From Meiothermus sp. (GTDB lineage: Bacteria; Deinococcota; Deinococci; Deinococcales; Thermaceae): DNA of 64,000 bases. Shown one piece after another: positions 7,558-10,395 of this stretch (within the stretch, counting starts at the first letter, position 1; every line of letters starts with the position of its first letter). The notes under the pieces are model-generated. The model saw nothing but the letters and a program-made list of their open reading frames with translations, had not been told where the DNA came from and did not search any database. Where the stretch lies: positions 2,274,501 to 2,338,500 of the forward strand of contig NZ_BPIM01000001.1 of assembly GCF_026004115.1 (NCBI RefSeq), given 5' to 3'. The translations under genes and the position numbers were made by a program.

Positions 7558-10188
7558 TTACCCCCTTACCACGATGTTCAGCAGTTTGCCCGGAATGTAG
7601 ATTTCTTTGACTACTTCTTTGCCCTCGAGGTACTGCTGTACGTTGGGAATCTCACGCGCGCGCCGCTTGATTTCTTCTTCGCTGGCCTGTGCACTAATGG
7701 TTGTTTTGCCGCGCACCTTGCCGCTAACCTGAACGACCAGCTCAAAGCTATCGGCCACCAGCGCAGCCTCATCTACCTGTGGCCAGGGAGCACTAAATAC
7801 CGAAGAGTTGTGGAACTCGTGCCAGAGTTCTTCGGCCAGGTGGGGGGCGAAGGGGGCCAGCATCTGCAAGTAGCAGAGCACCGCGTGGCGGTAGACCGGG
7901 GTGATGCCCTGCTCCTTGCGGTAGTCGCTCAAGGTGTTGAGCAGTTCCATCAGGGCCGCGATGGCGGTGTTGAAGCGCATGGCCTCGAGGTCCTCGGTCA
8001 CTTTCTGGATGGTCTGGTGCAGCTTCTGGTAGAGGCCCTTGTGGGCCCCTTCTAGCGCAGAGGGCTCGTACAGGTCGCTTTGGGCCTTAAGCTCCATCCG
8101 GTGCTCGGCTACCATGCGGTAGACCCGGTTCAGGTAGCGCCATGCGCCCTGTACCCCCTCTTCCGTCCAGATCATCTCGTTTTCGGGTGGAGCGGCAAAC
8201 AGGATGGTAATGCGGGCGATGTCGGCGCCCTGCTCTTTCACGAAGGGCCCCACCATCACCCCGTTGCCCAGGCTTTTGGACATGGTGGCGGCCTTCCAGA
8301 AGTGGGTGGTGCCGTCTTCGTGGATGCGAAGTTCTGCACCCGATTTTCGGGCTTCTTCCAGCGTGAGGGTCTCGGGGATTTCCAGCTTGGCCCGCCGCTC
8401 GGGGTTTTTGAAACGGATGATATCGCCCCGGACTTCCACTTCGCCCACGTCCGTCCAGCCCTGCACCATGCCCTGGGTGAACAGGCCTTCGAAGGGCTCC
8501 TCGGCCTCGACCATCCCCAGGTCGTGCAAAAACTTGGTGAAAAAGCGGCTATACAGCAGATGCAAAATGGCGTGCTCAACGCCGCCGATGTACTGGTCTA
8601 CCGGCATCCAGAAGTTGGCCTTCTCGGGGTCGAAGGGCAGCTCGAGGTTTTGGGCGTCGGTATAGCGCAGAAAGTACCAGGACGAGTCAATAAAGGTGTC
8701 CATGGTATCGGTGTCGCGCCGGGCCTTGCCGCCGCACTTTGGGCAGGTGCATTCATAAAACTCGGGGTGGGCCGCCAGGGGGCTTTTGCCCTTGGGGCGA
8801 ATGTCGTCTACATCGCGCAGGGTGGGCAGCTCGACCGGCAGTTGCTCGTAGGGTACCGGTACGATGCCGCAGCTTTCGCAGTGGATCATGGGGATGGGGG
8901 TGCCCCAGTAGCGCTGGCGGCTAATCAGCCAGTCGCGCAGGCGGTAGTTGACCTTGCCCTCGCCTATGCCTTTTTCTTCCATCCAGGCGATGATTTTTTT
9001 CTTGGCTTCCTCCACATTGAGCCCATTCAGGAAGCCCGAGTTGATGGCCGGCCCGTCTTCGGTGTAGGCCTTGCCCTGCCAGCCCGCCGGGGGCTCGACG
9101 GTACGGATAATTTCCAGGCCGAATTTCTCGGCAAACTCCCAGTCGCGCTCGTCCTGCCCCGGCACGGCCATAATGGCCCCGGTGCCGTAGCCCGAGAGCA
9201 CATAATCGGCAATCCAGACCGGGATCTCCTTGCCGTTGGCCGGGTTGATGGCGTAAGCCCCGGTAAAGACCCCGGTCTTCTCACGGTCTTCCATCTGCCG
9301 CTCGACCTCGCTCTTCATCCGGGTAGCGGCTACATAGCTGTCTACGGCGGCCTTCTGCTCGGGCGTGGTGATAAGTGCCACCAGCTCATGCTCGGGGGCC
9401 AGCACCATGAAGGTGGCGCCAAAAATGGTGTCGGGACGGGTCGAGAAAACCCTGATCCTGGCCTCGTGCCCTTTAACCGGGAAGTCGAACTCGGCCCCAG
9501 TGCTCTTGCCAATCCAGGCCCGCTGCATGGCCTTGACCTTTTCGGGCCAGCGGGGCAGCTTGTCCAGATCGTTCAACAAGCGTTCAGCATAGTCGGTGAT
9601 TTTGAGATACCACTGCTCGAGCTCCCGCTTCTCTACGAGTGCTCCGCTGCGCCAGCCCCGGCCATCAATGACCTGCTCGTTGGCAAGTACGCTCTGTTCG
9701 ACCGGATCCCAGTTGACAAAGCTCTTTTTACGATAGGCCAGGCCGCGTTCGTACATCTTCAGGAAGATCCACTGGTTCCATTTGTAGTAGTCGGGCGTGC
9801 AGGTAGTAACCTCGCGGCTCCAGTCGTACTGAATGCCCATCAGGGCCAGCGATTCTTTCGACTGTTTAATGTTGCCAAAGGTCCAGTCGGCAGGGCTTAC
9901 GCCAAACTTCAAGGCGGCGTTTTCCGCCGGCAGCCCAAAGGCATCCCAGCCGAACGGGTGCAGCACGCTGTAACCCCGCTGTACCCGGAAACGGGCCAGG
10001 ACATCGCCCATGGTGTAGTTCTTGAGGTGGCCCATGTGCAAGTCGCCCGAGGGATAGGGAAACATTACCAGGATGTAGGCTTTTTTGCCGCCTTTGCTCT
10101 CGGTGGCCCTCAGAAGCCCAATCTGCTCCCAGTACTTTTGCCATTTGGGCTCGAGCTCGTGGGGGTTGTATTTGTCGGTTGTGACCAT
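7558..10188 (-). CDS. leuS: Leucyl-tRNA synthetase
   Basis: The 876-residue enzyme charges tRNA-Leu with leucine in the cytoplasm. The class I signature HMGH is at residues 51-54 ([15 protein letters not shown]). The second signature reads TMSKS (residues 635-639) rather than KMSKS, a common variant. A zinc-binding region with two CxxC-like pairs (HCESCG and CPKCGG) and the CP1 editing domain lie between them. Length fits bacterial LeuRS. GGAGAA lies 8 nt before the ATG. Upstream on the same strand is a leader peptide with an intrinsic terminator, so attenuation by leucyl-tRNA supply is likely (see separate entries). Confidence 0.98.
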
Positions 10189-10300: not shown

Positions 10301-10329
10301 ATAAAAACCCCCTTCAGCGCTGAAGGGGG
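10301..10329 (-). terminator. Attenuator terminator upstream of leuS
   Basis: On the minus strand a 7-bp stem CCCCCUU/AAGGGGG closes over the self-complementary CAGCGCUG, followed directly by UUUUUAUU. It lies between the leader peptide and leuS. Its left arm is shared with an alternative hairpin (10325-10333 pairing with 10345-10351), so the two structures exclude each other. Confidence 0.85.
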
Positions 10330-10350
10330 AGCCTCCCAAACACGGGCCCC

Positions 10351-10383
10351 CTAAGGTAGTTCTAGGTAGATGAACCACTGCAT
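10351..10383 (-). CDS. Putative leuS leader peptide MQWFIYLELP
   Basis: This is a ten-codon open frame, ATG to TAG, with two CUA leucine codons (10363-10365 and 10357-10359). CUA is a rare leucine codon in this GC-rich window. It has no Shine-Dalgarno sequence, but TATGAT (10390-10395) lies 6 nt before the ATG, so the transcript would begin at the start codon. Its stop codon lies inside the element that can pair to form an antiterminator. The arrangement matches classical ribosome-mediated attenuation of amino-acid genes. It is inferred from sequence and too short to support by homology. Confidence 0.65.
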   Translation of the reverse strand: MQWFIYLELP

Positions 10384-10389
10384 GGTTTC

Positions 10390-10395
10390 ATCATA
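10390..10395 (-). promoter_or_regulatory. leuS: -10 box (TATGAT) of the leuS leader transcript
   Basis: TATGAT is read on the minus strand 6 nt upstream of the leader-peptide ATG. A T-rich stretch lies further upstream (10404-10425), but no clear -35 hexamer was found. Confidence 0.55.

Follow-up and report, generated by a model that had tools for sequence, protein, structure and literature searches.

How transcription of leuS, the gene for leucyl-tRNA synthetase, is controlled in Meiothermus is a question raised by a short transcription unit directly upstream of this gene. We analyzed a window, a stretch of 64,000 nt from Meiothermus sp. (assembly GCF_026004115.1, contig NZ_BPIM01000001.1, positions 2,274,501-2,338,500) in a genome of 3.35 Mb. 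The leader is on the minus strand, and its features are given below 5' to 3' on that strand. leuS (10188-7558, ATG at 10188) encodes a protein of 876 aa and is preceded by a Shine-Dalgarno-like GTGGAG (10203-10198). Farther upstream is an extended -10 element, TGC-TATGAT (10398-10390, TATGAT at 10395-10390), of a promoter that we call P1. The spacer GAAACC (6 nt) separates TATGAT from an ATG at 10383-10381, which opens a frame of ten codons encoding MQWFIYLELP (10383-10351, stop codon TAG at 10353-10351). The frame contains two CUA leucine codons, at 10365-10363 and 10359-10357. It is followed by an intrinsic terminator, CCCCCUUCAGCGCUGAAGGGGG and then U5 (10329-10303, stem 10329-10308), which a generic terminator scan also found. 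A preliminary description of the locus had read these parts as a trp-type attenuator, and direct reading of the sequence finds each of them in place. An inverted repeat, CCCTGTAACCCC..GGGTTGCAGGG, is located upstream of P1 (10470-10425); it is shortened in locus L006.

The leader does not correspond to a known RNA family. Rfam matches in the window are limited to an FMN riboswitch and tRNA. The Leu leader (RF00512) has no match at its gathering score anywhere in the window, and the T-box riboswitch (RF00230) has none in the window, leader included. The FMN riboswitch (109 bits, 13391-13244, minus strand) is located just 5' of a gene that, from its sequence, we judge to encode an NMT1/THI5-like periplasmic binding protein (13113-12121, minus strand). 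Because the riboswitch adjoins the 5' side of this gene, its product possibly serves flavin rather than thiamine transport.

Comparison with related genomes indicated that the leader is widely conserved. The detector, which took no account of leucine, required a TANNNT box, a start codon (ATG or GTG) 4-9 nt farther on, an open frame 4-45 codons long and, close behind the frame, an intrinsic terminator. Applied to both strands of the 64-kb window, it gave a single match, the ATG at 10383. Among the leuS upstream regions of 87 genomes of the order, it was positive in 55, spread over 18 genera and all five families. Owing to the relatedness of the genomes, 55 does not count independent events. 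The number is also a lower bound, as the strict detector misses leuS leaders with imperfect terminators, which were recognized by eye (L014, L018, L029, L052 and L087). The short frame and the arrangement of the parts are thus shared with relatives; the preliminary description had made its reading depend on such conservation. Ten sets of dinucleotide shuffles of the 87 regions gave no match in nine sets and one match in the tenth (about 0.1 per set). As a negative control, leuS upstream regions from other phyla gave one match in 79. This match is an actinobacterium with the peptide MRTGLLLTGPYRI (CTC CTG CTT), in keeping with the leuS leaders already described in Streptomyces. Searches of the class and the phylum gave no families beyond those from the order search.

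The attenuator is absent from some members of the order, for example Meiothermus rufus (L008). In three relatives within the genus, a tRNA-Leu with the anticodon UAA, as judged by eye, is located directly 5' of leuS. One of them (L017) has lost the leader; in the other two (L014 and L018), the leader is 3' of the tRNA gene and its terminator lacks most of the T run. At three weaker matches to the leuS query in the genome containing the window (L002, L003 and L005), the detector found no leader. Their weak matches suggest that these genes are probably valS, ileS and metG.

The most constant feature of the leader is one codon. All 55 detected frames contain CTA, and the conserved position corresponds to the first CUA of the frame described above; the second is conserved in part of the genus only. 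CTA accounts for 73 of the 96 leucine codons in the leaders (76%). Its share of leucine codons in leuS itself is 1.1% and 1.3% in the two main genera, Meiothermus (g1) and a genus (g2) that we call Thermus-like, a name inferred from similarity. In the window's leuS it is 1 of 71, in agreement with the rarity that had been proposed for CUA. Most Thermus-like leaders have a single leucine codon, which is always CUA. Frame length ranges from 7 to 22 codons, and from genus to genus the sequence around CTA is rewritten while CTA itself is unchanged. CTA stays, whereas the peptide, its length and the stop codon vary; the sequences thus argue that the codon CUA is conserved, rather than the amino acid, the peptide or pairing with the stop region. 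This leader has two leucine codons and its relatives often have one, so that as a sensor it is weaker than textbook leaders.

Two other explanations of the constant CTA were considered. Arrest-peptide systems likewise place a short translated frame ahead of a conditional terminator, and the leader could act through its peptide or by sensing a small molecule instead of through CUA decoding. However, the peptides diverge (for example MQWFIYLELP, MRFVKRLALT, MSPARLVP, MTRTGLPPA and MIHSGLDNSGSRQA) while the synonymous choice of CTA is kept. A peptide-based mechanism would tolerate the common codons CTG or CTC, and we find it scarcely credible. Alternatively, CUA could be kept for RNA pairing. The preliminary description had drawn a 1:2 stem between CCUA (10366-10363) and UAGG (10353-10350). 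In Meiothermus the codon always precedes a G, and the resulting CTAG can pair with the stop region. Yet the stop codons of the 55 leaders are TAG in 21, TAA in 22 and TGA in 12 while CTA stays, which rules out CCUA/UAGG as a conserved element. In addition, the base after CTA varies outside Meiothermus, and the distance from CUA to the stop codon ranges from 3 to 9 codons with CTA staying in frame. We therefore regard a pairing role as very improbable, and decoding of CUA as the preferred explanation of its conservation.

If CUA is decoded, a ribosome waiting at it should alter the folding of the RNA downstream. Three elements are relevant. Element 2, AGGGGGCCCG (10352-10343), is the 5' part of the predicted antiterminator; with a ribosome modeled at CUA, its pairing partners are 10338-10335 and 10329-10324. 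Element 3, CCCCCU (10329-10324), is common to the antiterminator and the terminator and would act as the switch, as suggested by folding and by comparison between genera. Element 4 is its partner in the terminator. In the constrained folding, a ribosome at CUA covered 12 nt from the first base of the codon, and RNA was taken up to the terminator loop. All 55 leaders were predicted to antiterminate with the ribosome at CUA and to terminate with the ribosome at the stop codon. The mean antiterminator energies were -19.4 and -3.4 kcal/mol, respectively. The difference was at least 3 kcal/mol in 55/55 leaders at both 37 and 60 °C, and likewise with a footprint of 15, but it is partly built in, as a ribosome at the stop codon covers more RNA.

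The position of element 2 is a less circular test. With only RNA through the CUA codon blocked, element 2 starts a median of 13 nt after CUA (sd 3.7), and its distance relative to the stop codon has an sd of 9.6. In the window, it begins 13 nt downstream of the C of CUA. The frame stops short of element 2 in nearly all leaders of families f1 and f4, and crosses it in f2, f3 and f5. Since the distance from CUA is tight and that from the stop codon is scattered, the antiterminator lies roughly a ribosome footprint past CUA in both arrangements.

The antiterminator is further supported by shuffling and by comparison between genera. Shuffling the element 2 segment weakened the antiterminator, with a mean z of -1.96 and values below -1.5 in 35 of the 55 leaders. 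The effect is clear in most genera and weak in Meiothermus (z -0.8), because its G-rich segment pairs almost as well when shuffled. Within Meiothermus, no covariation of the antiterminator pairs was found, and the columns are nearly invariant. For these two reasons, support for the 2:3 stem comes mainly from other genera. Between genera, elements 2, 3 and 4 vary in step, for example as AGGGGG/CCCCCU/AGGGGG, GGGAAGGG/CCCUUCCC/GGGAAGGG, GAGGG/CCCUC/GAGGG and GGGGC/GCCCC/GGGGC. The terminator shows one compensatory pair, UA to AU, in three relatives. Thus all three pairings of the preliminary description can be drawn in the window, and two of them, the antiterminator and the terminator, are backed by relatives. 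Its proposed comparison of leuS leaders in relatives gave a conserved CUA and this compensatory pair, but not the covariation within the genus. Three features of trp-type attenuation can be recognized here: a leader frame with CTA in 55/55 and a terminator between frame and gene are apparent in the sequences, and the calculations predict an antiterminator with one strand in common with the terminator, released when a ribosome sits at CUA and masked when it sits at the stop codon.

The fold without a ribosome appears to differ between genera. In the window, the predicted ribosome-free fold contains a hairpin within the leader frame, GUGGUUC/GAACUAC (10378-10356, pairing 10378-10372 with 10362-10356), beside the antiterminator. 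It is possibly a pause hairpin; it can also be drawn in L006 and is variable elsewhere. In Thermus-like genomes, GGCCAGG in the frame pairs with CCUGGCC just 3' of element 2. Modeling indicates that this is a true protector stem, which would hide element 2 and leave the terminator free. An equivalent stem that differs in a base pair (GCCCGG with CCGGGC) could form in the single genome of genus g3. Overall, a 1:2 pause or protector stem is predicted in Thermus-like and f4g8 genomes, and Meiothermus has the variable in-frame hairpin only. In the Meiothermus leader without a ribosome, the antiterminator is predicted to form while the terminator is still incomplete, and a failure of leader translation might lead to read-through into leuS. 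The untranslated default may therefore be read-through in Meiothermus versus termination in Thermus-like genomes.

The promoter suggests how the ribosome would reach the leader frame. In 48 of the 55 detected leaders, the gap between a TANNNT box and the leader start is exactly 6 nt, and the TGN ahead of the box is also present in Meiothermus relatives. Since the start codon follows the -10 box by 6 nt, there is no room for a Shine-Dalgarno sequence or ribosome-binding site. The leader transcript would thus be leaderless, with its 5' end at the leader AUG or beside it. A TANNNT box beside the start codon is an experimentally supported route to leaderless mRNA in this phylum (PMC12340547). The terms 'leader peptide' and 'attenuat' are absent from the text of that paper.

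Our analysis also revealed a second promoter, P2, between the terminator and leuS, which the preliminary description had overlooked. In the window, its -10 box is TACAAT (10222-10217), 34 nt ahead of leuS. A TANAAT box 31-34 nt before leuS and past the terminator recurs in 10 of 13 Meiothermus loci and 2 of 2 loci of the sister genus, and in 0 of 22 Thermus-like loci. Because of this promoter, the attenuator probably governs only part of leuS transcription in the window's genome. P2 also bears on a different interpretation, in which the short unit is a separate gene for a small RNA or a micropeptide, closed by an ordinary terminator, and leuS is driven by P2 only. The good TACAAT box and M. 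rufus, in which P2 is kept alone upstream of leuS, are compatible with this arrangement. However, the unit precedes leuS in five families, with CTA every time, and an independent gene would have no use for an element 2 capable of disarming the terminator. In Thermus-like genomes, the terminator directly adjoins the leuS ribosome-binding site and a second -10 box is not seen, so read-through must feed leuS. An independent gene is unlikely in the extreme.

Conservation, codon statistics and footprint geometry strongly support the trp-type attenuation through CUA proposed in the preliminary description. The leader is very probably a ribosome-mediated transcription attenuator of leuS that senses the Leu-tRNA reading CUA. 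From the observed parts, their conservation, the codon bias and the geometry, we infer where transcription starts and how stalling, termination and the leucine response proceed, as follows. RNA polymerase would begin on or beside the leader AUG, and a ribosome would load on the bare 5' end. When CUA-reading Leu-tRNA is plentiful, the ribosome would reach the stop codon and cover element 2. Elements 3 and 4 would then fold as the terminator, and little leuS would be transcribed from P1. When a shortage of leucine or LeuS leaves this tRNA uncharged, the ribosome would wait with its A site at the first CUA. The front of the ribosome would then reach just short of element 2, and the 2:3 pairing would block the terminator and allow leuS transcription. 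P2, beyond the terminator, would provide a floor of leuS expression in Meiothermus.

Similar leaders are found before other genes, and those of ilvB add to the case for attenuation at leuS. In the window's genome and its relatives, ilvB leaders are rich in codons for Leu, Ile and Val, many of them CTA and GTA. The ilvB leader of the window's genome (L212, G000:C1 about 2847100-2847520) encodes MFSTGSLILVVMGLVITGPMGDLV and contains CTA, GTA and ATC/ATT codons. Its -10 box, TAAACT, is 10 nt ahead of the ATG, a terminator-like hairpin is located before ilvB, and the arrangement is conserved in relatives. Across Thermaceae examples, the distance from the -10 box to the ATG of ilvB leaders is 9-10 nt; those with 10 nt are missed by the strict detector. 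leuA has a single case (L177). Short leaders with Phe codons and terminators precede pheS in families f2, f3 and f5 (L230, L231 and L242). No leaders were found before trpS in relatives.

The general mechanism and its target are of kinds already known. The leu operon attenuator of E. coli and Salmonella has an ordinary 5' leader, and the E. coli pheST attenuator has an ordinary ribosome-binding site. Like the Meiothermus leader, the leu attenuator (RF00512) uses CUA as a control codon; unlike it, it has several CUA codons and controls leucine biosynthesis, not a synthetase. The pheST attenuator (PMC1262725) is likewise a classical attenuator of an aminoacyl-tRNA synthetase operon, but senses phenylalanine and belongs to gamma-proteobacteria. 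The closest parallel is leuL2 of Streptomyces lividans, a leaderless leader peptide with a terminator before leuS (PMC8079986); classical attenuators of Streptomyces leuS were predicted in 2005 (PMC1262725). The combination that the preliminary description took to be undescribed is therefore known from Streptomyces. leuL2 resembles the Meiothermus leader in its leaderless peptide (MRAVRLLLSEPR), Leu codons, terminator and position 5' of leuS, but is found in another phylum and has three adjacent Leu codons; our data hold no evidence of common descent. Mycobacterial leaderless short ORFs with polycysteine are amino-acid-responsive attenuators (Canestrari et al., 2020, as cited in PMC13236596); they share the leaderless attenuator, but respond to cysteine through a run of Cys codons. 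Attenuation of amino acid and aminoacyl-tRNA genes is the subject of a 2010 comparative paper (Lopatovskaya et al., as cited in PMC4833913). Literature on leuS, Thermus and Meiothermus leaders, searched mostly outside subscription journals, yielded no description of the Thermaceae element.

What is new, as judged from the genome sequences, is the conservation across the order, the invariant CUA sensor and the sister leaders before ilvB, leuA and pheS. The leader would extend leaderless, ribosome-mediated control of a synthetase to the Deinococcus-Thermus thermophiles. Ribosomes may load on a leaderless mRNA once its 5' end emerges, which could make coupling to termination possible within about 75 nt. 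Among the leucine codons of E. coli, CUA is predicted to be the one best suited to control (PMC1183508), and the leu leader of Salmonella became less sensitive when CUG was substituted for CUA (Carter et al., 1986, as cited in PMC1183508). With one codon invariant across the order and the rest of the leader nearly free, these leaders may offer a clean natural test of the selective-charging idea, in which CUA is the most sensitive leucine codon (PMC1183508). Tentatively, and with slightly less than an even chance in our judgment, leuS expression across the order is set through this one-codon sensor by the charging or modification state of a rare CUA-reading tRNA, not by a run of codons, and the leader belongs to a set of leaderless or near-leaderless attenuators (leuS, ilvB, leuA and pheS) that largely use rare A-ending codons.
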